This document shows positions 14,690-30,521 of a stretch of DNA of 64,000 nucleotides, in pieces; positions within the stretch are counted from its first letter, which is position 1; every line of letters begins with the position of its first letter. Under the pieces are notes generated by a model, which saw only the letters and a list, made by a program, of their open reading frames with translations, was not told the origin of the DNA and made no database searches. The position numbers and the translations under genes were made by a program. Source of the DNA: a bacterium (GTDB lineage Bacteria > Hinthialibacterota > Hinthialibacteria > OLB16); contig JAJVIK010000011.1 of the NCBI GenBank assembly GCA_022072055.1, positions 370,597-434,596 of the forward strand, read 5' to 3'.

Positions 14690-14899
14690 ATGGAATTCAA
14701 ACCGGCTGAGCTGGCAAGGATCACGGGGTTCTCAAAGACTTCAGTTCTTCGTGTGTCGAATGAGCTCGGAATTAAACCCAAGCGGCGCGGTGTACTGAAT
14801 GAACGGCGCTACTCAAAAGGCCAAGCGAGAAAGATTATTGCCGAAATCGAGCGACGCCGAAATCCGGCTCTTGCGCTGGGCGCGAGGGGGCGGGGATGA
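14690..14899 (+). CDS. Small helix-turn-helix DNA-binding protein
   Basis: 69 residues; AGAGGAAGGGG just upstream fixes the ATG at 14690. The N-terminal half, MEFKPAELARITGFSKTSVL, followed by RVSNELGIKPKRRG, reads as a MerR/excisionase-type winged HTH, and the C-terminal helix is strongly basic. The stop overlaps the primase start (ATGA, 14896-14899), so the two are translationally coupled. Likely roles are the element's replication or excision switch, binding the palindrome upstream. In phage satellites the equivalent slot holds a master regulator; this is inference. Confidence 0.65.
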   Translation: MEFKPAELARITGFSKTSVLRVSNELGIKPKRRGVLNERRYSKGQARKIIAEIERRRNPALALGARGRG

Positions 14900-16935
14900 T
14901 GCCTGGAAAAACGAACGCCCCGGAGGTCACCGAGGCGCGGGAAAGACAGCAACTGCAACGCAACAAGATGATGCCCGGGGATGCTGATCTTGTCAACCTG
15001 GGCGGCCCGGTTGAGACAGTGTTGCGTGAGCTCACCGCGCGCGGCTGCAATCCGCGCCGGAGCGGCTCCGGATGGCAAGCGCGTTGCCCCTCGCACGGGG
15101 ACAGCACACCGAGCTTATCGATATCGGAAGGCGCGGACGGGCGCGCCCTACTCAAGTGTCATGCCGGGTGTGAGCTCGGATCAATTCTTTCCACGATCAA
15201 CCTAAAGGCCACTGACCTCTTCCCGGAGGAACCCCAGCGCGCGCGGCGCAACGGTCACCCCACGTCGCGCAAGGAGACCAAGCAGCTCCGGCCCGACCTT
15301 GAGCCAGTTATTGAGGCGCTCCACCAAGCTCTGCGGCGCGATGAATCGGCGCAACGCCTGCTCTTGGAGTCGCGCGGAATAACGCTCGAGACCGCAAAGC
15401 GCTACCGAATCGGCTGGGATGCGAAACAGCGGCGGTGGTCCATTCCGATCCGAAGGCCGGACGGGGTGGCGGTCGGATTGAAGTACCATCGATCCGATAG
15501 CGGCCAATCCCCAAAAGTTATTTCCGAGTCTGGCTCTTCGGTTGCTTTGTTCGGCGCGGATCATTTACTCGCCGATGGCTCACTTGTTGTTATTACTGAG
15601 GGTGAACTTGATTCGGCGGTGGTCTGGCAAGCCAGTGGACTGCACGCGGTCTCCGGATCGGGCGGCGCGGCGGCGGTCAAGGCCGAGTGGATCAAGCTCC
15701 TCCACGGTCACCCTGTGGTCTTGTGGCCCGATAATGATGAACGCGGGCGCGAGGGGTTGAGCCGATGGCTCGATCACTTGGGACCGGATGTGCGCAACGG
15801 CGCGATAACCTCGGTTCGGATCGTTAGGAAGCGCCTGCCCGAATGCAAGGACGCGACCGACTGTTTGCTCAAGCACGGCCCTGAAATCATCCGCGCGCTG
15901 ATCGAATCGGCGTTCGCCGAGGTGCATTCCGCCCCGGAGACCAAGCCCCGCGAGGCGGTGAGGCCATTTCTGGTTAATCTGGCCAAAGTCGAACCGGAGG
16001 CGGTTTCTTTTTTATGGGAGCCATACTTTCCGAGGGGCAAAGTCACCCTACTTGAAGGCGAACCCGGCGATGGCAAAACGACCTTCGCGCTCATGGTTTG
16101 CGCTCACGTGACCAATGGGCGCGGTTGGCCTGGCCCCGATGGCGAGTTGGGACCCCGGCGCGAACCTGGCCGGGTGTTGTATCTGAGCTGCGAGGATGGC
16201 CTGGCTGACACGATCCGGCCCCGCCTGGATCGAGCAGGCGGCGACCCGACCCGGTTTGTGGCGCTCACGGGTTTGACCAACGGCGAACCGATCTTCCTTT
16301 CGGACCACACGATGGTCGAGGCCGCGATGGCCGAGGTACGGCCCGCGCTCATGGTGGTCGATCCCATTCAGGGATTCTTGGGCGCGCGGGTGGACATGCA
16401 TCGGGCGAATGAGGTTCGCCCCCTCATGGCTCGTTTGGGCAACCTGGCCGAGACTTACGGTTGCGCGGTGGTGGTGATTCGCCACTTGCGCAAGTCATCC
16501 GGAGACCATCGGCTTCATCGTGGGCTTGGCTCAATCGACTTCACGGCTCACGCGCGGTCAATTCTCCGGATTGGCCGGGACCCGAACGACTCGGAGGCGC
16601 GCGCCGCAATCCAGGTGAAAGCTTCGTGCTCGGCTGAAGGCCCCGCCATTGGCTTTCGGATCACTGACCGGGGATTCGAGTGGACCGGGGTCTCCTCCCT
16701 TTCAATCCAGGACATGGAGGCGGGGGAGACCGACCGCTCCGCGCGGGATGAGGCGATGGACTTCCTCAAGGAGGCCCTGGCCGAGGGACCCGTCCCGGTT
16801 CGGGACCTTCGGGGGGACGCCGAAGGAGCCGGACTCGCGTGGAGAACAATCGAACTCGCTAAGCGCGCGCTCGGCGTACGCGCAATGAAGTCCGGGTTCG
16901 GACGGGGGGGGACGTGGCAATGGCATCTCCCCTGA
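14896..16935 (+). CDS. Primase-helicase (CHC2 zinc finger, TOPRIM, RepA-like ATPase)
   Basis: 679 residues. The N-terminal zinc-binding site is C64-x2-H67 ... C88-x3-C92 (CPSHGDSTPSL ... LKCHAGC). A TOPRIM domain follows (VVITEGELDSAVVWQASG with the catalytic Glu; VVLWPDNDERGREG with the DxD-like acid pair). From about residue 370 is a RepA/RecA-like ATPase: Walker A GEPGDGKT (about 388-395), Walker B ALMVVDPIQGF. The C-terminal 80 residues look like a winged helix. It should prime and unwind DNA to replicate the excised element from the repeat cluster just downstream. Confidence 0.9.
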   Translation: MMPGKTNAPEVTEARERQQLQRNKMMPGDADLVNLGGPVETVLRELTARGCNPRRSGSGWQARCPSHGDSTPSLSISEGADGRALLKCHAGCELGSILSTINLKATDLFPEEPQRARRNGHPTSRKETKQLRPDLEPVIEALHQALRRDESAQRLLLESRGITLETAKRYRIGWDAKQRRWSIPIRRPDGVAVGLKYHRSDSGQSPKVISESGSSVALFGADHLLADGSLVVITEGELDSAVVWQASGLHAVSGSGGAAAVKAEWIKLLHGHPVVLWPDNDERGREGLSRWLDHLGPDVRNGAITSVRIVRKRLPECKDATDCLLKHGPEIIRALIESAFAEVHSAPETKPREAVRPFLVNLAKVEPEAVSFLWEPYFPRGKVTLLEGEPGDGKTTFALMVCAHVTNGRGWPGPDGELGPRREPGRVLYLSCEDGLADTIRPRLDRAGGDPTRFVALTGLTNGEPIFLSDHTMVEAAMAEVRPALMVVDPIQGFLGARVDMHRANEVRPLMARLGNLAETYGCAVVVIRHLRKSSGDHRLHRGLGSIDFTAHARSILRIGRDPNDSEARAAIQVKASCSAEGPAIGFRITDRGFEWTGVSSLSIQDMEAGETDRSARDEAMDFLKEALAEGPVPVRDLRGDAEGAGLAWRTIELAKRALGVRAMKSGFGRGGTWQWHLP

Positions 16936-16943
16936 CCGGGGCA

Positions 16944-17047
16944 AAGACCGCTAAGACCGCAAAGATTCCCTATATGGCGGTCTTAGCGGTCTTAGGCAAA
17001 ACCCCAATAAAAACCATAGTCCGCAAAACTGCCTTTGCGGTCTTAGC
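16944..17047. repeat. Origin-like repeat cluster downstream of the primase
   Basis: AAGACCGCTAAGACCGC (16944-16960) and its exact inverse GCGGTCTTAGCGGTCTT (16977-16993) form a perfect 17-bp stem around a 16-base loop. A third GCGGTCTTAGC follows at 17037-17047, with A-rich sequence between (17000-17020). Each arm is itself a tandem of the GCGGTCTTA unit, so there are five copies in two orientations. Iteron-like repeats plus an AT-rich stretch directly after a primase-helicase are the usual layout of a replication origin. The rest of the gap to 17186 shows nothing else recognisable. Confidence 0.6.
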
Positions 17048-17186
17048 AGAGGCGTCCCAAGTGATAACAGCTCCCCGGCAAGGGGCTAGGCGGGGGGAGG
17101 GGGATCGAAAGTTTATGCCCGAAACGGCTAGGAACGTGGCGTGTGCCGAGTAAAAAAACGCCCCCACAAAAAGCGCGAGCTAAATC

Positions 17187-17483
17187 ATGATCGAGATTCA
17201 CCCAAACCGATTCTACACGCGCGGTGACTTGGCGGAGCTACTCGCCCCCGCCGGGGTGGACGTGGATCACTTCATTGCGACGGTCAAGCCGAGGCGGGTT
17301 CTTAAGGCCCTCTACCGTGGGAGCGACTTGCTCACCGGCTGGGACCGCGCGCGGGAGCTGGGTGAACCCGTCCCGATCCCCCAGGCGAAGAATTCCGGTG
17401 GACGGCGGAGGAAGACCGGCCCAAACGGATCGGAAGACAGGTTGATTGGAGGCATCTTCTCACGGGAGGAAATAGGCTTGTGA
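17187..17483 (+). CDS. Small protein, probable excisionase or HTH accessory factor
   Basis: 98 residues. The first 60 (RFYTRGDLAELLAPAGVDVD, then HFIATVKPRRVLKALYRGSD) look like a small winged helix as in AlpA/Xis proteins, with the basic RPRR-like turn in the expected place. The C-terminus is polar and basic. It lies immediately upstream of the integrase, the usual place for a recombination directionality factor. Assignment is by size, composition and position, not by a firm motif. The upstream ribosome binding site is weak. Confidence 0.5.
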   Translation: MIEIHPNRFYTRGDLAELLAPAGVDVDHFIATVKPRRVLKALYRGSDLLTGWDRARELGEPVPIPQAKNSGGRRRKTGPNGSEDRLIGGIFSREEIGL

Positions 17484-17635
17484 GTGAAGAGAAAAAATTC
17501 CCGCTTGACTCGGACCCCCGACCCGGCTCTACGATGGAGGCGGTTGAAGGGGTTGCCATGATCGAGAGCGGAGCGGTTTCCATCCTGCCTTGTTCGCCGT
17601 TGCAAGTCTCGCCTCGGATCGGAGGTGAAACTGAA

Positions 17636-18820
17636 ATGGCGAAGAAACCATCCTTTCGGATCGGCAAAGTTACGATCCGACAGTTGCGCCCAGGAACCCA
17701 TGAGCTTCGGTGGAGCGACCCGGTTGAAAGACGGGACGTGAAGCGAAGAGTTTACGGCGCGCTTTCGGATGCCAAAAAATCAGCCGAGCATATCAACCTG
17801 TTGATCCACCAAGGCAAGGGTTATCTCCCAGGAAGGAAGGTGGCCCCGACCCTCAAGCAAGGTTTCGCGGAATGGCTCCGGCTATCGAGCATGCGGGAGG
17901 AAACCAAGCGGGACACGGCCTTCGTAATCGGGCGGTTCTTGCGTTGGGCGGAGAGCAACTATCCGGGGGTTTCGGATTGGTCTCTCATCCGACCCAAGAT
18001 GGTTCAAGAAATGATCCTGTTCCTGAAACGGGAGGGAAAGGCTTTCGACACCCAGCGGCTCTACTTGCGGCCCGTGCTGGGTGCTTGGAGGTATGTCCGG
18101 GAGAACTATGGCGAGAGTGTGCCACCTGTTCCGAGGATTACTCTGAAACGGCCCCCACGGGAAGAGATAAGCATTCTCCACCCCGTGGAAGTCCATTCCT
18201 TGCTTGCATGGCTCAAAGACCACGCCCGGCACCTGTGGAGCATCGGAACCTTGCAGGCAACCTGTGGGCTTCGGATGTGGGAGGCGGCCTTCCTTCGCAA
18301 GTCGGACATAGACTTCGAGCTGGGGACCGTGACCGTTACGAAGACTCCATACCATGAGCCAAAGAACCGGAACAGCTATCGGACCCTCCCGATCCCCGTG
18401 GAGGCGATGAAGGCAATCGAGCAGACCCTCTCCCATGCGAGAGTGTGTTCTCTGTCCGAGGTTTTCCTGTCACCCACGGGAAGGGTCTGGAACCGGACTT
18501 CACTGGCTTCGGCATGGCGGCGGGCGCTGGAACGGGCGAGCCGAGACCTCGGAAACCCCCGCCTCTTGGGGATACCCCCCCGGAAACTTCGGGGGTTCTT
18601 TGCGACTTCGGCTTCTCGACTTGGAGCCAGTGACCGCGTGTTGAAGCGATACCTTGGGCATGCTCAAGGAGACATACTTGGCGAGCATTACCGAGCTGTG
18701 GACTTGGCCGAGCTGCGGGAGGTTTCGAGCCGGATGGAATCATGGCGGAGCCTGATTTCGGGAACCGAGTCCGGAAACATTCCGGAAACCGGTTTTCGTG
18801 GAAAGGCTCTATCCCTTTGA
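17636..18820 (+). CDS. Tyrosine recombinase (integrase) of the element
   Basis: 394 residues from the ATG at 17636, which has GGAGGTGA upstream; a longer version from a GTG at 17480, overlapping the previous stop, is possible. The N-terminal part binds arm sites, the middle is a SAM-like core-binding domain, and the catalytic domain has Arg213 (TCGLRMWEA), Lys in the KNRNSYRTLPI hairpin, Arg319 (RKLRGFFATSA; the box II His is Arg and the second His is Gly) and Tyr352 in GEHYRAV after LGHAQGD. It integrates and excises the element at tRNA-Pro. It ends 40 bases before attR. TTGACT at 17505-17510 may belong to its own promoter. Confidence 0.92.
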   Translation: MAKKPSFRIGKVTIRQLRPGTHELRWSDPVERRDVKRRVYGALSDAKKSAEHINLLIHQGKGYLPGRKVAPTLKQGFAEWLRLSSMREETKRDTAFVIGRFLRWAESNYPGVSDWSLIRPKMVQEMILFLKREGKAFDTQRLYLRPVLGAWRYVRENYGESVPPVPRITLKRPPREEISILHPVEVHSLLAWLKDHARHLWSIGTLQATCGLRMWEAAFLRKSDIDFELGTVTVTKTPYHEPKNRNSYRTLPIPVEAMKAIEQTLSHARVCSLSEVFLSPTGRVWNRTSLASAWRRALERASRDLGNPRLLGIPPRKLRGFFATSASRLGASDRVLKRYLGHAQGDILGEHYRAVDLAELREVSSRMESWRSLISGTESGNIPETGFRGKALSL

Positions 18821-18860
18821 GTCCTGTGGGGTTATGGAAGGATCGTAGAGTGACTGGGGG

Positions 18861-18896
18861 AGTGGTCGCTGGTTCAAATCCAGTCGCCCCGACCAT
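18861..18896 (+). repeat. attR: 36-bp direct repeat
   Basis: Exact copy of 9920-9955, the T-arm and acceptor strand of tRNA-Pro without the 5' half, so it is not a functional tRNA. TGACTGGGGG directly before it (18851-18860) also matches the tRNA, minus three bases. Confidence 0.93.
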
Positions 18897-18910
18897 TCAA
18901 AACATTAGAG

Positions 18911-20106
18911 TTACGATGCGTGGAGAGGAATGACAGATTGAGCGCCGTAACCTCTTTCGTAACCTTTTTCGAGCCATCCCGCCGTTGCCGCGTCAGTCCG
19001 GGAGACCACTTGGTCCCGGAGTAGAGGGTACCGGACCTCCTCCTCGGCGTTGTACGATTGACCCGTGACTGTCCCCGGCGTGTGACCGAGGTAACGTTCG
19101 ACCGGGTAACCGCTCCACCCGTTAATTTCCGCCTCCATGGAGAGAGTTCTGCGCAACCCCCTGGGTTCGGGCGCCTGGAGTCCAAACGTGACGCACAGGG
19201 CATTGTGGAGGACCTTGGAGTAGGCTATTCGGTCGGTCCATGCGGTGACAACGCGAGCCTCGGATCGGCGGACCTCCGCAAGGAGGCCCCCCACGATTGC
19301 CGGCAAGGGTAATACTCTCTCCGAGTATCGGTTCTTGACCGCTCCACGAATCCAGATTCGGTCCGCGCCAACCTCCGCCCACTGGAGGCGGAGCACCTCC
19401 AGGATTCGCAGCCCCATGACTCCCTGCAATGCGATGGGCAGCCGCAACTCAACTGGACACGATTCGAGCAGGGTGAGGACCTCGGCAAAGGCGAGGATCT
19501 TTCGTTATCACGCTGGACCGCGCGCTTGGCGAACGTTGAAGCCTTGGGCGAAGTCTTGCAGCCCCCACTGAGGCAAAACGAATACGGAGGCTGACCGAAC
19601 CACGAAAATGCAGCGCTTGATTGTGGAGGGGGAACTCCCCTGCCTCGACAGGAAATGGGTGTTTTCGGCAAGGGGTTGATACCACAACCCAGCCCAATTT
19701 CGGATCCGCGTGTACCCAGACCAAAGGATAAAGGACTTACAGTACGCCGCGCAATTCGACGGGGTATACTCGCGCACCCGTCGGAGTGGCAGCCATGCCG
19801 CGAAGACAGCCTCAACGTGCAAGTCGGCAGAGTGTTCCGAATATCCTTGGCTGGGATCCGATAAACCGTGTTCCATGCCTCGAGCATCCGCTCGACCCGA
19901 TCGGAATACACCCACCAACTCGGGACATCGATCACCAAATCAGATCCCGTACGATCTTCTTTCAAGCGCCACAGATCGGTGAGCGTCTGAACGACGAACC
20001 CGGATAACGGAACTTCCCGGATCCGGGGTTCGTTCTTGACCCCGGCATTGCGCGAGTCTCGATCTTCCACCTCCAGGGTCTTTCTCCAGGCGCGCCTGGC
20101 TTCCAT
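18911..20106 (-). pseudogene. Decayed tyrosine recombinase(s)
   Basis: Read on the minus strand, three frames carry pieces of phage-type integrases. The 5' piece (20106 to about 19830) has a hairpin region followed by AKDIRNTLPT, a box II-like motif. The middle (about 19900-19500, another frame) resembles a core-binding domain (SSPSTIKRCIFVVRSASVF). The 3' piece (19447-18911) has GLRILEVLRLQW (box I Arg), RGLRRTLSMEA (box II) and YLGHTPGTVTGQSYN with the nucleophile region. Several frameshifts are needed to join them, and there may be two original genes. It sits beside attR, as expected for an older insertion at the same tRNA. Confidence 0.75.
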
Positions 20107-20110
20107 CCTC

Positions 20111-22756
20111 TCACGAAGGGGGAAGTCCGGACGGCCTCAAGAAACACACCGCTCGTTGCGCTTGTGGATCCGCCGCCAGCTGGATGACGAATCCCGGCGC
20201 GGCCTCCTCCACATCGATCAAACGCACCATGGACTCGTAAGCGCCGGCATCCGGGAGGAGGCGAGTGAGGCAATTGGGCGACTCAGAAAAAAAACGCGCA
20301 TGAAACTGATCGCGAGTATCCGAAGGGTACACCGGCAAATAAATGATCTGAGACTCAACCAAATCCTGGAAGAAGTGTGTCCCATAGGAGACTTCGGGAG
20401 CATGACCAGCTTCCTCCAGCGCCATTTCGACCAGGACCGATGTGTTGTTGATATCCGAGTAAGAAACGCTTACACCGAGATCGATGTGGCTGGTTCCCCA
20501 TCTTCCAGGCCCTAACATCATGCACTTACCGTGCTGGACTGAGGGATGCCTGTTGATACGCCCCACCAGTCGACCCACGCCTCTTTTTTCCTCCGCGTGC
20601 GGGAGGTTGGCGTACGCCAGGGGGTCGATATACAGGGCGTATCGGATCTCCGGAACCACTCCGCCACAGACAAGTCTGTGCGCGCGGAATAACACTCGGT
20701 CCTCAGGAAATTCCCGCGGAATATCCACCACCACGCCTTCCGTGCCAGGGAGATTCATCGGGCGGCATTGCACCAGGTTGATGCGAATCTCACGATCGGG
20801 TCCGATAAACGCGGTAAACTCCACATCAAGAGGAATACAGTAGGCTTTCTCGATCACCTCCAGGATCCGTCCGACCAGCGAAACAAAGTTCGTGCGCTTG
20901 ATCAGGTTATTGAATGTCAGCACAAGGGAATCAGCATCCGAATCGATGAACAACGAGGTGGGGTCGGAGACGAAACCATCCTTCATCAGCGAAACGAAGA
21001 GATCCTGATTTGGGTAATCGAATCCACCCAAGACCACCCTTGCGGTCCGGGTGACCAATGCGCCGCCGTCAAGATCCAGTAGGTCCACTTCGCGCTGCGA
21101 ATACCGCGCGATTGCATTTCCCACCTCGGGGCGGAGATCCGGATGGCTGACCGAAATAAGCCTGGGGTAGTCACTGCTAGTCCTGTCGACGGCCCGTGTG
21201 CCTAACCCGAAAACCAGCCGGATGAAACCCTTTGTTCTGTCAATTCGATCACTCCATGCATACAGATTCTTTGAAAACGCCACTCCCGCCAAAGTGGGAA
21301 AAAAGGAGCGCTTATAGGGAGCGCCGGAAACCCGCTGGATCAGAAGTGCCATCTGCTCATCACTCTCAGCCAGCCCCCGTTTCCGACGATAGGACAGCGC
21401 ATCCGGATTAAGCGCGCTTGCGTAGACAAGGCGAACGCACCGAAGGAAGGTCTCCAAGCGCTGTTCGGGGGTTCCCTGGTTGACACAGAACTCGCTCCTG
21501 TATTTCCCGGCAAACGCGTTTCCAAAACTGTCCTCGAGAAGACTGCTACTCCGAACGATGATTGGGGCCTGTCCGAAATAATCGAGCATGTTTTCAAACT
21601 GGGCCATCACCTCCGGGGGAAACGAGCCGCGCAGGAATCGCTCCTCGATCTCCTCGAATTCCGCATGGCTAACCGACTCCCCTTGAGTGAGCTGCAGACG
21701 CAGGCGGAACAAATCGTTATTGACTAGAAACGTGTAAAACACATCCGAACCGACATAAAAGGAATCGTGGCTTTCCATGATTCGGTCATATTCTTCCGGG
21801 CCGAGATGGCGGCGAAGGATTGAGCGAGCAAGCAACATGCCGAGGGCTTTCCCGCCGATCCTGCCCGACCCAACAACCCTCCGTCTAATCTCGAACAGGT
21901 CATCCAGGCCGAGGTATTCCTCCACGAGTTGCATGAATCTGGGATGCGCGCCCAAAAGCATGAGCGCAAACTCCTGCCTGAGGAGAACAAACTCGGGATC
22001 GGATGAAAGTTGGGCCTCGTTCATTCCTTCGTACTGGAGTAGCCTGCGATAAATCGATTCCCATGGAGCAATCGATTCCGAGCCCAACCTGAGGGGCTCC
22101 CGTCGCGCCCGCGCGACAACCGCGGCCGCCTCTCCGCTGAATATCACCGGCGAGAGCCCATCGTTGGAGACAAGATGGGGAAGGAACATCTTGGATGAAT
22201 AACGATCCCACACTTTGAGCGCGTGGAAAAACTTCTGTCCACCCACTCGATAGACATTAATCAGTATCTGCGTGGTGTCACGGATGCGCGCCACCGCTCG
22301 GTCCTGATGGTTGCCCAGCTTGAGTCCAAAAAAGGCCACCGTGTCGAGCTCAAACAGAAACGGACAGGTAACCTGGAAGAAATTGGCAAGGAGCTCATCG
22401 GTTGCCCATTCTGCGACCAGGTCTGAAATGTTATCGAACACAAAATGGCACTCTCTGCCCCGCTCCTCGATGACACGGTGCAGTCTTGAACAGAACGGGT
22501 CAAAACCGGCGGAGGGATCCAGTTCGATGATTTCCAGTCCCGGCTGAGGCGTGAGAATCGGGGCATGGGCGGCAAAGCGGACATACACACACGCGAACCC
22601 ATCTCGAATAGCCTGAGCGGCGAAGGGCTGGGCGAAAATGCGGTAGTCTTCGAGTTCATTCACCTGCCAGACAACGTTGTCTCCCAGGTGGATCCCTAGA
22701 AGCGTGTCGTCCAACGAAGGGTTCCCGCTTCGTATGGTCCGTGTGGCGGGGGACAT
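20111..22756 (-). CDS. KaiC-like / PEP-synthase-type ATP-grasp fusion protein A
   Basis: 881 residues in three parts. Residues about 1-230 resemble a KaiC/RecA domain: SLDDTLLGIHLGDNVVWQV at the usual start and a Walker B-like CHFVFDNISDL, but no Walker A GKT/S, so it probably does not hydrolyse ATP. About 295-680 is a PPDK_N ATP-grasp domain (GSGRIGGKALGMLLARS; IIVRSSSLLEDSFGN with FAGKY; EIRINLVQCRP). The last 200 residues are a further domain (GPGRWGTSHIDLGVSVSYSD). The phosphohistidine and PEP-binding TIM-barrel domains of PEP synthase are missing, so it is not a PEP synthase. It is last in the GDH operon and paralogous to the protein at 27873. Confidence 0.75.
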   Translation of the reverse strand: MSPATRTIRSGNPSLDDTLLGIHLGDNVVWQVNELEDYRIFAQPFAAQAIRDGFACVYVRFAAHAPILTPQPGLEIIELDPSAGFDPFCSRLHRVIEERGRECHFVFDNISDLVAEWATDELLANFFQVTCPFLFELDTVAFFGLKLGNHQDRAVARIRDTTQILINVYRVGGQKFFHALKVWDRYSSKMFLPHLVSNDGLSPVIFSGEAAAVVARARREPLRLGSESIAPWESIYRRLLQYEGMNEAQLSSDPEFVLLRQEFALMLLGAHPRFMQLVEEYLGLDDLFEIRRRVVGSGRIGGKALGMLLARSILRRHLGPEEYDRIMESHDSFYVGSDVFYTFLVNNDLFRLRLQLTQGESVSHAEFEEIEERFLRGSFPPEVMAQFENMLDYFGQAPIIVRSSSLLEDSFGNAFAGKYRSEFCVNQGTPEQRLETFLRCVRLVYASALNPDALSYRRKRGLAESDEQMALLIQRVSGAPYKRSFFPTLAGVAFSKNLYAWSDRIDRTKGFIRLVFGLGTRAVDRTSSDYPRLISVSHPDLRPEVGNAIARYSQREVDLLDLDGGALVTRTARVVLGGFDYPNQDLFVSLMKDGFVSDPTSLFIDSDADSLVLTFNNLIKRTNFVSLVGRILEVIEKAYCIPLDVEFTAFIGPDREIRINLVQCRPMNLPGTEGVVVDIPREFPEDRVLFRAHRLVCGGVVPEIRYALYIDPLAYANLPHAEEKRGVGRLVGRINRHPSVQHGKCMMLGPGRWGTSHIDLGVSVSYSDINNTSVLVEMALEEAGHAPEVSYGTHFFQDLVESQIIYLPVYPSDTRDQFHARFFSESPNCLTRLLPDAGAYESMVRLIDVEEAAPGFVIQLAADPQAQRAVCFLRPSGLPPS

Positions 22757-22809: not shown

Positions 22810-24057
22810 TCAGATTCTGCCACGAATCCGCATTGAATCAACCACGCGGGTCACCGCCACGACATAGGCGGCCTTGCGCATGGTGATGTTGAAGCGCTGG
22901 GAGGCATCCTGGACAGCGTGATAGGAGGCGGTTTGCTTCTTGTCCAGACGATCGTAGATCATCTCCTTGTCCCAATGAAACATGTACGAGTTCTGGACCA
23001 TCTCAAAATAAGACACGGTCACCCCACCGGCGTTGCAGAGCACATCCGGAAGATGGTGGATTCCCTTGCGATGAAGGAGGACATCCGCTTCAGGAGTGGT
23101 CGGGCCATTCGCGAGTTCAGCGAGAATCTTGGCCTTGATTCGTGGGGCGTTGGCTTCGGTGATGACGTTCTCAATCGCGGCCGGAATCAGGATGTCCACA
23201 TCGAGTTCGAGGAGATCCTCATTGGAGATCGCCTCGGTTTTCGGCATTCCTATCACGGAACCGGTCATTCCCTTGTATTTCCTGACCGCTTCCGGGTCGA
23301 GGCCATCCCGGTTGAAAACGCCTCCCTTGCTGTCACTGACCGCGACCACTTTCGCGCCGAATAGGCTTCCGCACAGGAGCGCCGCGAAGTAGCCCGCATT
23401 GCCGAATCCTTGAATCGCCACGCGCGAGCGAGACAGCTCGATCCCTCGGGTCTGGGCGGCCTCGCGCAGGACGAACATGCCCCCTCTCGCGGCCGCATCC
23501 GCCCGCCCCACCGAGCCTCCTACCGCAAGCGGTTTGCCCGTGATCACGCCGAACTGGCTCTGACGGCTGAGCTTGAAGTATTCGTCCATCATCCAGGCCA
23601 TGACCTGGGGATCCGTGTAGATGTCAGGGGCCGGAATGTCCTTCTCGGGGCCGAGATATTCAAACAGGGCATCCACATACGCTCGGCTTAACCGCTCCAG
23701 CTCATTACGCGACATTTCCTTGGGATTGCACATGATCCCGCCCCCCGCTCCCCCGAGCGGCAGATCGAGCAGCGCGCATTTCCAGGTCATCCAGGCCGAT
23801 TGCGCCCGTATGGCGTCCACGGTCCGGTCAGGGTGAAAACGAATTCCCCCTTTTGTAGGGCCACGGGCATCGTTGTATTGCACCCGGCATCCCTGGAAGA
23901 CCTTGAGTGTTCCATCATCCATACGGATGGGGAGGGAGACATGAACTTCACGCATCGGAGAGCGAAGCACCGCGTGGACATCCGGATCCAATCGCAGAAT
24001 GTCGGCGCATTCCGCCAACTGCCTGTTGGCCACATCGAAAGAACTTACCTCAGGCAT
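22810..24057 (-). CDS. Glu/Leu/Phe/Val dehydrogenase homologue lacking the catalytic lysine
   Basis: 415 residues, the length and pattern of hexameric NAD-type glutamate dehydrogenases: GPTKGGIRFHP (Lys69), Lys93, DIPAPDIYTDP (Asp145), and a Rossmann motif VAIQGFGNAGYFAA. The GGGKGG/GGAKGG motif, whose Lys is the catalytic residue, reads LGGAGGGIMCNP: Gly105 stands in its place (codon GGG at 23743-23745). It may be inactive or act as a regulatory partner of the intact GDH two genes upstream; paired catalytic/regulatory GDH subunits are known in Thermus thermophilus. It lies 53 bases before the ATP-grasp fusion gene. No insertion or frameshift is seen, so this is not simple decay. Confidence 0.85.
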   Translation of the reverse strand: MPEVSSFDVANRQLAECADILRLDPDVHAVLRSPMREVHVSLPIRMDDGTLKVFQGCRVQYNDARGPTKGGIRFHPDRTVDAIRAQSAWMTWKCALLDLPLGGAGGGIMCNPKEMSRNELERLSRAYVDALFEYLGPEKDIPAPDIYTDPQVMAWMMDEYFKLSRQSQFGVITGKPLAVGGSVGRADAAARGGMFVLREAAQTRGIELSRSRVAIQGFGNAGYFAALLCGSLFGAKVVAVSDSKGGVFNRDGLDPEAVRKYKGMTGSVIGMPKTEAISNEDLLELDVDILIPAAIENVITEANAPRIKAKILAELANGPTTPEADVLLHRKGIHHLPDVLCNAGGVTVSYFEMVQNSYMFHWDKEMIYDRLDKKQTASYHAVQDASQRFNITMRKAAYVVAVTRVVDSMRIRGRI

Positions 24058-24122: not shown

Positions 24123-25004
24123 CTATCGGGATGCCTTTCTGGGACGCCACAAATCCGGTCCATCCTCGCACGGGCCCCCTTCGGATTCCTCCTTCAAATG
24201 TGTGTGCGGATCGTTCCGAATGAGACCTGAAGCCAGGCGGCCGATCACGGCGGGACGCCAAGCCTCCTCGTAAAGGTAAGCCAGAATATCACTCTCCGGA
24301 CTCAGGTGGGCGGGGCGATTCCGGATCCCAGATCCCGCCCAGATAACGGCTCCTAGAAACTCTCGTTGGAGCTCCTGAGCACAGAGGTTCAGCATCCATC
24401 GGCAGGTCGCCAGCCCATCGTGATGGCGGCCACCATGGCAGCACTCCACCGATAGGCTCTGGAATTCCGAGGTTAGGTCCCGTCCTCCCGGCCCCAAGAT
24501 TCGGCCGACCTCCTCCGAGGCTTGCTGACAAAGCCGAAGGGCCTCATCGGACTTCCCCTGGATGCACTTTATGATGGACAAGTGGTGGAGGCTCATATAG
24601 TGAGTCTTGGTGCTGGTTGAGGGGATCTTCGCGAAGGCGGCGTTCTTCTGGATGGCCAGGGATTCCGTGTATGCCTCCTCCGCGCGATCATAGTCCTCGA
24701 CGAATTGGTATAGCAGGCCCATCAAGTTGAGCCCGCTTGCCGCCTCTAAAGACTCCGCGCCGAAGATTTGCCGCTCAATGGTCAGGGATTCAAGGAAGTA
24801 ATCCCGCGCCTCCGCGAATCGGGTCAACGCAAAGTAGTAAACTCCCACTGTGCGCAGCATCAGCACGGTGTAGGCGTTTGGCTGGTGGAATTTCCTCGCC
24901 TCCGCGAGCGCCGCCAGGAAATCCGTCTCCGCGGCGGCAAAATCTCCCTTCCGCAGGGAATCCTTTCCCGCGCCCTTTCGGCGCATCATCAGGTCGTAGC
25001 TCAC
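24123..25004 (-). CDS. Tetratricopeptide-repeat protein
   Basis: 293 residues starting at a GTG (25002-25004) with AGGAGG seven bases before it. Residues about 15-190 contain four to five TPR-type helical pairs (for example GDFAAAETDFLAALAEARKF and EDYDRAEEAYTESLAIQKNA), which bind partner proteins. No signal peptide or membrane segment is present, so it is cytosolic. It sits between the two GDH genes in one minus-strand operon, 58 and 65 bases from each, which suggests a scaffold or adaptor for them or for the ATP-grasp fusion. The partner is unknown. Confidence 0.75.
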   Translation of the reverse strand: MSYDLMMRRKGAGKDSLRKGDFAAAETDFLAALAEARKFHQPNAYTVLMLRTVGVYYFALTRFAEARDYFLESLTIERQIFGAESLEAASGLNLMGLLYQFVEDYDRAEEAYTESLAIQKNAAFAKIPSTSTKTHYMSLHHLSIIKCIQGKSDEALRLCQQASEEVGRILGPGGRDLTSEFQSLSVECCHGGRHHDGLATCRWMLNLCAQELQREFLGAVIWAGSGIRNRPAHLSPESDILAYLYEEAWRPAVIGRLASGLIRNDPHTHLKEESEGGPCEDGPDLWRPRKASR

Positions 25005-25062: not shown

Positions 25063-26510
<1,448 letters not shown>

Positions 26511-26514
26511 GAAA

Positions 26515-26543
26515 AGAATACCCGTCCTCTCCCCCTGTGTCAA
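26515..26543 (-). promoter_or_regulatory. Sigma70-type promoter of the gdhA operon
   Basis: On the minus strand, TTGACA (26543-26538) and TATTCT (26520-26515) are separated by exactly 17 bases: a perfect -35 and five of six bases of the -10. Transcription would begin near 26508, about 105 bases before the gdhA ATG. Confidence 0.75.
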
Positions 26544-26818
26544 GATGAATACTCTAAACGGAACCACAATGCCTGAAACCGGCGGACGTGGCCTTCCTCT
26601 TCGGAAATCATTGAGGAATTCGCTTCACAGGCCATCGTCGGATTTGATGCGGTCGTTCCCCAACCGACCCCTGCGGCAGGCCAATCTGGACCTGAGAGAA
26701 CCTGCCGGAGTGAACGTGCCGGCGCCAGGATTGCGCGCGTACTTCCGTTAATCACTTGAATTCCGCCCGGTCGCGTGGCAGTATTCAGGTGCTTATTCGC
26801 CACTTACGGCCCGCATTC

Positions 26819-27838
26819 ATGCGAGAACCTCTTTCACGCCAGAGAGTCGCCATTCTTCGAATCCTCCAGGACGCTCACGAGCCGATCGGGAGCGGTCGCA
26901 TCGCGGAGGAGATGAAGATTCAGGGCTATGACCTTTCGGACCGAACCATTCGATTCCACCTCCTCGAGCTCGAGAAGGAGGGGCTCGTTTCCGAGGGTCG
27001 ACGCGGCAGGGATGGGGGACGGACTCTCACATATCAAGGTTCAGAGGAAGTCCGCAATTCACTCGTCCAGGAGCGGGTCGGGTTTATCGCCACGCGGGTC
27101 GAAGCGATGGCTTCCCAGGTGACACTCTCGCCCGAAACTCGTCAAGGGCTGGTGGTGGTCAATGTGGGACTGATTGACCGAACCCATCTGACCAGCGCCA
27201 TGCGCGAGATGATCCCGGTCTACCGAACCGGGTTGGGGATGGGTCAATACGGCGCCCTTGTAAAGCCGGGGGAGAAGGTGGGGGGAGTTTCCATCCCTCC
27301 CGGGAAAGTAGGGGTGGCGACTGTCTCAAGCGTCACAATCAATGGTGTCTTACTTGGATCTCGAATTCCAACTTGGTCCATCTTCGGGGGAGTGCTGGAG
27401 ATATCCGAAAAAGAGCCGGTGCGGTTTACGGATGTTATCCATTACAATGGCACCTCTCTCGATCCCCTGCAGGTTTTCATCCGTGGCAAGCTCACCAATG
27501 TCCGACGCGCGGCGCGAACCGGGACCGGCCGAATAGGCGCCAGCTTTCGCGAATTCCCCACGACCGCGTATCATGAGGTGGAGCGCTTGATCGGGCTTCT
27601 CGCGGGAATGGGCCTCGATGGATGCCACCAGATCGGCAAGCCGAACCAGGCTTTTCTTGGATTTGGAGTCCATGAAGGCATGACAGGTCTGCTGGTCAAA
27701 GGCGGGATGAATCCGCTTGCCGCGGTGGAGGAAGCGGGTATCCCGGTTCTGATCCATCCACTCTGCGCCATGGCTTTTTTTGAGACACTGGTGCATTACG
27801 AGGAAATGGCCCACCAATCATCCCGAGAGGATTTCTGA
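26819..27838 (+). CDS. nrpR: NrpR-type nitrogen regulator (winged HTH plus DUF128 domain)
   Basis: 339 residues from the ATG at 26819; in-frame GTG (26789) and TTG (26756) starts are possible. Residues about 5-75 form a winged helix (RVAILRILQDAHEPIGSGRI ... RTIRFHLLELEKEGLV). The rest is one NrpR regulatory domain (DUF128): GLVVVNVGLI, GQYGALVKPGEKVGG, GVATVSSVTINGVLL, GASFREFPTTA, GKPNQAFLGFGVHEGMTGLL. NrpR represses nitrogen-assimilation genes in methanogens and is released by 2-oxoglutarate. Here it faces gdhA and is followed after 34 bases by ATP-grasp fusion B, so it probably controls both units. Confidence 0.88.
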   Translation: MREPLSRQRVAILRILQDAHEPIGSGRIAEEMKIQGYDLSDRTIRFHLLELEKEGLVSEGRRGRDGGRTLTYQGSEEVRNSLVQERVGFIATRVEAMASQVTLSPETRQGLVVVNVGLIDRTHLTSAMREMIPVYRTGLGMGQYGALVKPGEKVGGVSIPPGKVGVATVSSVTINGVLLGSRIPTWSIFGGVLEISEKEPVRFTDVIHYNGTSLDPLQVFIRGKLTNVRRAARTGTGRIGASFREFPTTAYHEVERLIGLLAGMGLDGCHQIGKPNQAFLGFGVHEGMTGLLVKGGMNPLAAVEEAGIPVLIHPLCAMAFFETLVHYEEMAHQSSREDF

Positions 27839-27872: not shown

Positions 27873-30521
27873 ATGATCGAAATGAGAGACCCCGGTTCCC
27901 CCTCGGATCCCCCCGAGGAATCTGTCCGACACAGTACAGGTCTTCCCGGCTTGGATGTAGTCCTTCAGAAGCTTCTGCCCGGCGACAATGTCGTTTGGCA
28001 AGTTGACGACATCGGGGATTTCCATGACTTCGTGGTCCCCTTCTGCTCGGCGGCCGCCGTGGAGGGGCAGAAGCTCACTTACTTCCGTTTCGCGTGGCAT
28101 ACACCCCTGGTTTCGGACTCTCACGCCGAGGTTGTGGAACTGCGTCCCACGGAGGGATTTGAGGCTTTCATCGCCGAAATCCATCAGGTCATCCGGAGGA
28201 ATGGCCCCGGGGGATTCTATGTATTCGACTCCTTGTCGGAGCTGGCTCTGGAGTGCTTCAGCGACCAGATGGTGGGCAACTTCTTCATGCTGACCTGCCC
28301 CTTTCTTCTGAAGCTTAAGGCTGTGGCTTACTTTGGGGTGCTCCGCCACTACCACTCTCCACAGGCCGCTCAACCCATCGCCGAGACCACTCAGATTCTC
28401 ATTGATGTGTATCGATCTCAAGGAAATCTGTACGTGTATCCCAGGAAGGTCGCGGGTCGGACTTCACCCACCATCCACCTACTTCACGCTTGGGAGGGGG
28501 ATAGGTTCAGACCCATCACCAGTAGCGCGGGAACCGCCGAAGTGCTCACCGCGGTTCCCTGGTCGGGAATCCAGACGCCCCCTTACGGCATGGGAGTATG
28601 GAATCATGCCTTTTTCCACGCGGAGGAAGTTTGGCGAGCCCAACTCCGCAAAGAAATCCCTCGCGAAAAGGTGCGTGAAGCCTTTCGAGGGTTGTTCCGA
28701 CTCATCATTTCACGCGAAGAACGTCTGCTCGAACTGGCCGAGAAGCACCTTTCTCCTCGGGATATCCTCGGCATTCGCGCGCGGATGATAGGAACCGGAT
28801 ACATTGGGGGAAAAAGCGCCGGAATGCTTGTAGCTCGGTCGATCCTGTTAGGAGAAAACCCAGAGTGGGAGGGGAAACTCGAGGCGCTGGACGCATTCTA
28901 TATTCCATCGGATGTGTTCTACACCTACCTCATCATCAACGACTGTTGGTGGATCCGGAGGCGACAGCGTGATCCGGAGAACTTCCTCGAGTTCGCGGAC
29001 GAGGCCCGCCGGCGTATCCTGACAGGGAGCTTTCCTCAAAGCATTTTGGACGGCTTTGAGCGTATGCTGGAATACTTCGGCCAATCGCCAATCATCGTTC
29101 GTAGCAGCAGCCTTCTTGAGGACAGCTTCGGTAATACGTTCGCCGGGAAATACGAGAGTGTCTTTTGCGCGAATTCCGGCAAGAAGGAGGAGCGTATGGA
29201 ACAGTTCCTCCAAGCCGTCCGGATTGTGTATGTCAGCAGCATGAGCGAGGAGGCCCTCCGTCATCGGGCCGAACGAGGGGTGTTGGACCAGGATGAACAG
29301 ATGGCGCTTCTGGTCCAACGAGTTTCCGGCGCTCAATATGGAGACATGTTCTACCCACAGGTCGCCGGCGTGGGTTTTTCTTTCAACCCCTATGCTTGGA
29401 GTCAGTTGATTGACCCCAAAGCAGGCATGGTAAGACTTGTGTTCGGGCTTGGAACACGGGCTGTTTCCACCAAGGTTGACGACTACACCAGACTCGTGGC
29501 CCTGAACGCGCCCCACCTTCGTCCTGAAACCGGAATCGATGAGGTTCGTCGGTACACTCAGCGACTTGTTGATGTTCTCGATCTTGACCGCCAGGAGGTC
29601 AGGAGCATTCCCTTCGAGGAAGTCATCGCCACAAGCCCCGGGTTGGACTCAGATCTGTTTGTCGCGGTTGATGAGACCGCCGGGCTATACCAACGCGATC
29701 GAGGAAGCGCGGCCATTCCCTTCAAATCCCTCTCGCTTGATCGTCTGATACAGGAAACCCCGCTGGCCAAGGACCTCAAGAGCATGCTCGCGACACTTGA
29801 GGAAGCCTATGACCAGCCCGTGGATATAGAGTTCACCGTCAACCTGAGGCAGGGCGGTGATTATCGGATCAACCTGCTGCAATGCAGGCCCCTCCTCATC
29901 CGTGAGGAGAGCCTGTCGACCCGGATCCCCGAGGATATACCCGACCAGGACTTGGTGTTCCAGGGACGGGGGGCCGTGGTCGGAACCAGCCGCGCTTTCC
30001 CGGTTGATCGCTTCATTTTTGTTGTTCCGTCTTTGTACAGCCAGGCTCCGCTCCAGGAAAGGTATTCTGTCGCGCGCTTGCTCGGGAAGCTGAACCGTCT
30101 CCAATCACGGAATTCCCGTGTCGTTCTGATGGGACCCGGGAGGTGGGGAACCTCGACCCCTTCCCTCGGAATTCCGGCGTGCTTTGCTGAAATCAGCCGC
30201 ATGAGCGTCGTCTGTGAATTAGTGACTATGCGTGAGGGATTCAGCCCCGATGTGTCTCTCGGCACTCATTTCTTGAGCAATCTTGTCGAAACCGACATCC
30301 TGTATGTGGCTCTTTTCCCGGAGAGGCGAGAGACGGTTTTGACAGAAGAGTTTTTTCTTTCGAGGCCGAACCGCCTCGCGGATTTTCTTCCCAATGAAAC
30401 CCGTCTGAAGGAAATGGTGCGGGTGGTGGAACCCACTGAAAACGGCGAGGAGATTTGGTTTTACGCCGATTGCTTGACCCAAAGCATGCTCTGCTTTCGC
30501 CGCTATAGGGACAAGTCTTGA
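27873..30521 (+). CDS. KaiC-like / PEP-synthase-type ATP-grasp fusion protein B
   Basis: 882 residues from the ATG at 27873, one residue longer than its paralogue at 20111-22756 and with the same three parts: a KaiC-like domain without Walker A (GLPGLDVVLQKLLPGDNVVW; FYVFDSLSEL as Walker B), a PPDK_N ATP-grasp domain (GTGYIGGKSAGMLVARS, IIVRSSSLLEDSFGN with FAGKY, YRINLLQCRP) and a C-terminal domain (MGPGRWGTSTPSLGIPACFA). No phosphohistidine domain is present. The pair has diverged considerably but kept both outer domains. Co-transcription with nrpR suggests a nitrogen-linked role; the reaction is unknown. Confidence 0.75.
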   Translation: MIEMRDPGSPSDPPEESVRHSTGLPGLDVVLQKLLPGDNVVWQVDDIGDFHDFVVPFCSAAAVEGQKLTYFRFAWHTPLVSDSHAEVVELRPTEGFEAFIAEIHQVIRRNGPGGFYVFDSLSELALECFSDQMVGNFFMLTCPFLLKLKAVAYFGVLRHYHSPQAAQPIAETTQILIDVYRSQGNLYVYPRKVAGRTSPTIHLLHAWEGDRFRPITSSAGTAEVLTAVPWSGIQTPPYGMGVWNHAFFHAEEVWRAQLRKEIPREKVREAFRGLFRLIISREERLLELAEKHLSPRDILGIRARMIGTGYIGGKSAGMLVARSILLGENPEWEGKLEALDAFYIPSDVFYTYLIINDCWWIRRRQRDPENFLEFADEARRRILTGSFPQSILDGFERMLEYFGQSPIIVRSSSLLEDSFGNTFAGKYESVFCANSGKKEERMEQFLQAVRIVYVSSMSEEALRHRAERGVLDQDEQMALLVQRVSGAQYGDMFYPQVAGVGFSFNPYAWSQLIDPKAGMVRLVFGLGTRAVSTKVDDYTRLVALNAPHLRPETGIDEVRRYTQRLVDVLDLDRQEVRSIPFEEVIATSPGLDSDLFVAVDETAGLYQRDRGSAAIPFKSLSLDRLIQETPLAKDLKSMLATLEEAYDQPVDIEFTVNLRQGGDYRINLLQCRPLLIREESLSTRIPEDIPDQDLVFQGRGAVVGTSRAFPVDRFIFVVPSLYSQAPLQERYSVARLLGKLNRLQSRNSRVVLMGPGRWGTSTPSLGIPACFAEISRMSVVCELVTMREGFSPDVSLGTHFLSNLVETDILYVALFPERRETVLTEEFFLSRPNRLADFLPNETRLKEMVRVVEPTENGEEIWFYADCLTQSMLCFRRYRDKS

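Follow-up and report, generated by a model that had tools for sequence, protein, structure and literature searches.

To our knowledge, the post-translational control of glutamate dehydrogenase (GDH) is poorly understood in most bacteria. Yamamoto and co-workers reportedly observed in 1987 that an agent of unknown nature reversibly inactivates GDH in living Bacteroides fragilis, and Baggio and Morrison are said to have found in 1996 that B. thetaiotaomicron depends for its GDH activity on trans-acting genes, then unidentified, in the vicinity of gdhA. In Thermus thermophilus, one type of GDH subunit is catalytically inactive and regulatory (PMC9570180), and the title of a work cited in PMC12364357 indicates that AMP activates by way of a heterocomplex between the enzyme and another protein. 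Archaeal NrpR is a nitrogen repressor that senses 2-oxoglutarate (PMC11957540).

Here we describe a protein (gene A) encoded in a 64,000-nucleotide stretch of bacterial DNA (the window). Judged by sequence comparison, gene A is no isolated curiosity but belongs to a large family, as yet uncharacterised, that is linked to nitrogen assimilation. The initial annotation of this DNA had read the sequence features of the protein correctly; it overlooked a paralog, an NrpR-like regulator, the nitrogen-gene neighbourhood and an inactivated GDH paralog.

Domain composition of gene A

The reading frame of 881 codons runs from an ATG at 22756 to a stop at 20111 (Table 1), and the plus strand of this interval is interrupted by stops; the initial annotation had given the coordinates exactly and left the strand unsaid. 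An end-to-end alignment of 865 residues with relatives from several phyla (37-70% identity) shows that gene A is not a chance open reading frame. A single-sequence search of the PDB gave no relative, and the sole Pfam match was PPDK_N (147 bits, cut-off 27).

Table 1. Coordinates of features in the window and, for the last two rows, at related loci
Feature	Position	Strand	Remarks
Gene A	20111..22756	-	881-aa KaiC-like + PPDK_N + GPGRWG protein
KaiC-fold domain, residues 1-218	22103..22756	-	P-loop absent, GDNVVWQVNELED instead; Walker-B-like FVFD108
PPDK_N ATP-grasp, residues 299-668	20753..21862	-	Pfam; PPDK/PpsA active-site set intact
C-terminal domain, residues 669-881	20111..20752	-	Conserved G749PGRWG754, E777, S790-x-G-x-H794-F
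His794, candidate acceptor	20375..20377	-	99% conserved; helix start in model
GDH1, ELFV dehydrogenase	22810..24057	-	Pfam; 53 bp upstream of gene A
TPR-repeat protein	24123..24989	-	Between GDH2 and GDH1; internal ATG 24989, longest ORF from 25181
GDH2, NADP-GDH type	25063..26403	-	Catalytic Lys125 intact (26029-26031)
NrpR-like nitrogen regulator (HTH_12 + NRD1_2)	26756..27838	+	Divergent from GDH2
Gene B, 882-aa paralog of A	27873..30521	+	Same architecture, 37-40% identity, directly after NrpR
GGCAA-N(2-4)-TTGCC palindromes	L109 4058-4337, L113 4225-4353, L114 4908, L119 4220, L121 4717-4846, L122 15046, L084 10427, L088 11314		
Fic-domain gene	L076 8723-9799, L077 4863-5936, L080 4969-5979		PF02661 in L076, L077; also matched L078, L081, L087

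A full-length AlphaFold model, built from five sequences, was confident for the N-terminal ~218 residues (pLDDT mostly 80-92) and poor at residues 487-552 and 750-813. In a Foldseek search of the PDB with the N-terminal domain, the best E was 5.5e-9 and the top 50 matches were mostly KaiC, plus FlaH and PH0284; the TM-score against a single KaiC C1 domain was 0.66-0.68 (Foldseek, normalised to C1). The earlier description of this region as KaiC-like without Walker A is thus borne out: GxxxxGK[ST] is absent from this domain in every one of the 62 relatives that share the architecture; GDN[VIL]V[WFL] takes its place throughout, and 60 keep the Walker-B-like FD. In gene A, GDNVVWQVNELED follows the first strand, where the P-loop would stand.

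The ATP-grasp motifs pointed out previously were found at residues 399-405 (IIVRSSS) and 415-419 (FAGKY). Residues K303, R402, S403-S405, E408, D409, E646, Q663 and R665 correspond to the nucleotide-site residues of PPDK; across 106 relatives drawn from every architecture, each shows at least 99% conservation. A profile alignment with E. coli PpsA (probability 98.8%, E 8.8e-17, 316 columns) brings RSSS...ED, DVEF/DIEW and QCRP/QARP into register. The domain looks catalytically competent, as predicted from these residues.

The NCBIfam PEP-synthase models all scored gene A far under their cut-offs (best 52.9 bits against 883). The phosphohistidine motif (GGxTxH) occurred in none of 110 family ORFs, Pfam gave no PF00391 match in gene A, and by Pfam scan there is no PEP/pyruvate-binding TIM barrel; the C-terminal 213 residues form a different domain. 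With these key domains absent, gene A is, on the sequence evidence, not a PEP synthase. The initial annotation had likewise noted that the swivelling phosphohistidine domain and the PEP barrel are lacking, and had rejected a PEP synthase identity. Its expectation that automatic annotation would assign that name did not hold, as NCBI calls a distant relative a 'PEP/pyruvate-binding domain-containing protein'.

In the C-terminal domain, G749PGRWG754, G761, E777, P787, S790, G792, H794 and F795 are conserved, and the motif reported earlier, GPGRWGTSHIDLG, was found at residues 749-761. The initial annotation had proposed structure prediction of the parts, which gave the KaiC fold described above, and a profile search of the C-terminal residues. 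No Pfam family matched this domain in any of 51 diverse members, and no PDB sequence matched it even by profile search. Folded alone, it was modelled better than in the full-length protein (pLDDT 82, pTM 0.83; the model rests on five sequences), with the GPGRWG loop after a strand, E777 within a strand and H794 opening a helix. Foldseek gave no significant fold match in the PDB (best E 0.07, probability 0.21), and a search of a viral fold library gave nothing. This model makes a new fold possible. As for the suggestion that the domain may be a new family, it does lie outside Pfam, but it is not special to gene A, being present in ~100 relatives from at least five phyla.

By eye, GTHFF resembles GGxTSHAA, and its spacing from QxRP looks similar. 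The possibility of a diverged phosphohistidine domain was rejected: hhalign against PEP-utilizer domains from the same phylum, E. coli PpsA and a PPDK gave a probability of 0.2%, equal to that of reversed and unrelated controls. EIN-Ntr appeared in the Foldseek results only at E 1.3. Because hhalign behaved as with the controls and Foldseek gave no significant match, we do not claim that the domain is a phosphohistidine domain. From its conservation, we infer that His794 is a candidate phosphoryl acceptor.

Distribution and gene neighbourhood of the family

The ATP-grasp + GPGRWG core was found in about 100 relatives from at least five phyla, including Bacteroidota, in five architectures; our literature search found no paper on this family. 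It is present in 9 of 14 genomes examined from the small phylum to which this bacterium belongs, and also in Bacteroidota. Samples of three other phyla had it in 62/247, 48/195 and 36/300 genomes. Genomes that carry the family include those of Bacteroidota, Kiritimatiellota/Verrucomicrobiota-type, delta-proteobacterial and Bacillota bacteria. Class 1, as in gene A, has the KaiC-like domain before the core, class 2 (mostly ~770 aa) has another N-terminus, and class 5 (~1000 aa, the Bacteroidota type) has response-regulator-like N-terminal domains. Class 3 (~1065 aa) carries an extra C-terminal nucleotidyltransferase with GSTxNxxAGPGSDIDLL, and class 4 (mostly ~580 aa, Bacillota) consists of the core alone.

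In the class 3 members at L141, L143, L144, L122, L130, L131 and L142, the nucleotidyltransferase with its GS...DIDL motif occupies the C-terminal ~150 aa; it might nucleotidylate GDH or else a protein of the PII-like kind. Of the class 4 members (L145-L151, L172), some adjoin a gene for an ECF riboflavin-type transporter and none has nitrogen genes nearby; the role of this class may differ from that of the rest. At L010/L164, in a genome of the same family (G013), the gene A orthologue is split into two overlapping ORFs, by a frameshift or an assembly error. No relative of gene A was found in the viral contigs searched. Class-5-like relatives, with 25-27% identity over residues 303-827, are encoded in two records from human faeces that bear the name 'Bacteriophage sp.' and no annotation (MT835667.1 and MT835811.1); these records are possibly mis-binned Bacteroidota DNA.

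To examine the neighbourhoods, ~100 family loci, picked without regard to context, were compared with 40 regions taken as controls from the genomes that hold them. GDH genes lay within ~6 kb in 63 of the 94 loci of classes 1, 2, 3 and 5 and in 0/40 controls (Fisher p 6e-15). When the count was widened to all the nitrogen genes considered (GDH, GOGAT, GlnK, AmtB, GSIII, GlnD or NrpR), the figures were 72/94 and 1/40, respectively. These counts are of non-independent events, as some loci are mutually close relatives, and some flanks end at contig ends. By class, GDH was nearby in 40/62, 7/10, 6/6 and 10/16 loci of classes 1, 2, 3 and 5, and any nitrogen gene in 49/62, 7/10, 6/6 and 10/16; both counts were 0/8 in class 4. 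The linkage of the family to nitrogen-assimilation genes is thus above background, as shown statistically. It extends to 25%-identical relatives in Bacteroidota, where the Parabacteroides gene has gdhA 166 bp away, and class 3 genes always adjoin GDH1. The 31 of 94 loci with no GDH in reach, some with flanks ended by contig ends, include six with glutamate synthase (L085, L086, L092, L120, L138, L139) and three with AmtB-GlnK plus GSIII or GlnD (L089, L110, L111).

The type of GDH tracks the family tree (6 changes, against a minimum of 16 and a mean of 21.8 in 200 shuffles), a pattern that indicates co-inheritance, not contact. Co-occurrence over genomes was uninformative, since 177 of 195 sampled genomes carry an ELFV dehydrogenase. 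No modifiable residue marked family-linked GDH2 relative to unlinked GDH2; only two prolines and a terminal valine emerged.

In the window, the minus-strand order is GDH2, TPR protein, GDH1 and gene A, with gaps of 53-73 bp when the TPR gene starts at its internal ATG; this is an apparent operon with gene A last. A TPR protein recurs in loci of the same phylum. The NrpR-like regulator was recognised by Pfam at 1.7e-70 (NRD1_2) and 1.2e-15 (HTH_12); its pairing with gene B recurs in the phylum (L162, L165, L166, L169, L170), and NrpR recurs with family and GDH2 genes in other phyla. Fic proteins and sigma-54 activators are, with NrpR, among the regulators that recur in family loci. Six loci of one phylum have, between the family gene and GDH2, a Fic-domain gene in the opposite orientation (Table 1), possibly encoding another protein-modifying enzyme at GDH.

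The archaeal NrpR operator is GGAA-N6-TTCC, and a search found no enrichment of it. In several phyla, the interval from GDH2 to NrpR holds clusters of short palindromes GGCAA-N(2-4)-TTGCC, in many cases CGGCAATATTGCCG, which are a candidate bacterial NrpR operator unlike the archaeal one; in the window, GGCAA/TTGCC occurs only as separated half-sites (26466-26517). Just downstream of gene A, reading by eye revealed a primase/helicase-like ORF (14896-16935), a tyrosine-recombinase-like ORF (17480-18820) and a recombinase-like fragment on the minus strand (18911-19447), so that 14896-19447 is likely the remains of a mobile element.

The GDH1 of the window has LPLGGAGGG where active GLFV dehydrogenases have GG[SAG]K, with Gly105 at the position of the catalytic lysine (23743-23745, minus strand). 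Glycine stands there in all five relatives from the same phylum. In the phylum sampled through G014, the lysine is replaced by serine in four genes (at L115, L118 and L122) and by glutamate at L119; GDH1 retains it next to genes of classes 2 and 3, as it does in the phylum sampled by way of L004. Parsimony on a quick tree requires two changes when scored as lysine or not, and three by letter. GDH2 keeps the lysine in 41/41 sequences. A GDH paralog thus appears to have been repeatedly inactivated beside an intact GDH2.

Proposed function and alternatives

We propose, at about an even chance, that the product of gene A uses ATP to regulate ammonium assimilation and that its most likely target is GDH. 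The architecture, the ATP-grasp conservation, the absence of PEP-synthase domains, the nitrogen linkage and the GDH1 lysine loss were computed; we infer that the protein turns over ATP, accepts the phosphoryl group on His794, acts directly on GDH and is a regulator, not a metabolic enzyme, and also in which direction it exerts control. The P-loop-less KaiC fold would be a docking or sensing module, and the PPDK-type ATP-grasp would bind and cleave ATP. The C-terminal GPGRWG/GTHFF domain, in the place of the phosphohistidine domain of PEP synthase, would take the phosphoryl group, with His794 as the candidate acceptor, or present it to the target. The cognate partner of gene A would probably be GDH1, which lacks its catalytic lysine and could serve the active GDH2 as a regulatory subunit, and paralog B would work with the NrpR/GDH2 unit. 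The previous choice of GDH and 2-oxoglutarate for an assay fits the gene context.

A regulator is favoured by the modular fusions with response-regulator-like N-termini and the class 3 nucleotidyltransferase, which are typical of signalling, and by the ATP-grasp conservation, the GDH linkage reaching Bacteroidota, the other nitrogen genes beside several GDH-less loci, the agreement of GDH type with the family tree, the GDH1 lysine loss and the Thermus precedent. Against it, gene linkage is no proof of physical action on GDH, 31/94 loci are GDH-less, class 4 has no nitrogen genes (0/8), and linked GDH2 has no distinguishing modifiable residue; the dissimilarity of the C-terminal domain to the PEP-utilizer domain, by profile and fold, counts against His794 as acceptor. 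The conserved ATP-grasp residues would be just as expected in a metabolic enzyme. One alternative, which we regard as rather unlikely, is an ATP-dependent ligase or kinase acting on glutamate, 2-oxoglutarate or ammonia in a pathway with GDH: the wider PPDK_N superfamily has bond-makers (the PigC, RedH and rifamycin phosphotransferase models match weakly), and pathway enzymes commonly share operons with dehydrogenases, but the partners vary as for a regulator (GDH1, GDH2, GOGAT, AmtB-GlnK, GSIII), the N-terminal modules vary, one partner is a pseudo-GDH, and NrpR, Fic and sigma-54 activators recur in the loci.

Alternatively, the ATP-grasp might only bind ATP or ADP and control GDH allosterically in a complex, as a non-catalytic energy sensor. 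A P-loop-less KaiC fold already makes up the N-domain, GDH1 lacks the catalytic lysine, and Thermus offers a precedent in an inactive GDH subunit with, as far as the cited title tells, an AMP-sensing partner. We regard this, too, as rather unlikely: all architectures keep the full ATP-grasp set, among it the acidic residues that should bind metal, beyond the needs of binding, and the C-terminal Arg, Glu and His are also kept. It is highly improbable that gene A is a PEP synthase or pyruvate phosphate dikinase, be it complete or divided among several genes. The PPDK_N domain, weak NCBIfam matches and a relative at L005 that follows, at a short distance downstream, an 884-aa gene taken for PPDK speak for it; besides the lack of the motif, of PF00391 similarity and of the barrel and the low scores given above, the missing domains were not seen encoded next door, and two separate PF00391 genes lie elsewhere in the genome.

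Returning to the ATP-using regulator, a wider form of the proposal can be offered only tentatively: the whole family may be a dedicated ATP-driven GDH/ammonium switch that has so far escaped recognition, in which the ATP-grasp would load a new phospho-carrier domain (His794) and the group would be handed on to GDH or a catalytically dead GDH subunit, with interchangeable sensor inputs (KaiC-like, REC-like and others). If so, a common 'PEP/pyruvate-binding' annotation would gain a function and a domain outside Pfam a role, and the old Bacteroides GDH observations would become testable. The repeated loss of the GDH1 catalytic lysine points to pseudo-enzyme regulation beyond Thermus.

Comparison with known systems

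Gene A shares the PPDK_N ATP-grasp and its catalytic residues with PEP synthase and PPDK (PpsA, PPDK), but has neither the phosphohistidine domain nor the PEP/pyruvate barrel; it has instead a different C-terminal domain and a P-loop-less KaiC-fold N-terminus. Residues 1-218 have the fold of the KaiC/RadA/FlaH RecA-like ATPases, whereas the domain in the class of gene A has no P-loop (62/62), is present in a single copy and is fused to an ATP-grasp. The Bacteroidota 'PEP/pyruvate-binding domain-containing protein' (WP_041525632, Parabacteroides) has the same core and GDH neighbourhood, with a response-regulator-like N-terminus instead of the KaiC-like one and ~25% identity to gene A. With covalent control by GlnD/GlnE the family shares the nitrogen linkage, and class 3 relatives have an active-looking nucleotidyltransferase; gene A itself has no such domain. 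The heteromeric GDH of Thermus thermophilus also has an inactive GDH paralog, regulatory there, and a nucleotide-binding partner; that partner is a phosphoribosyltransferase homolog, not an ATP-grasp protein, and the arrangement described here is known from its genes.
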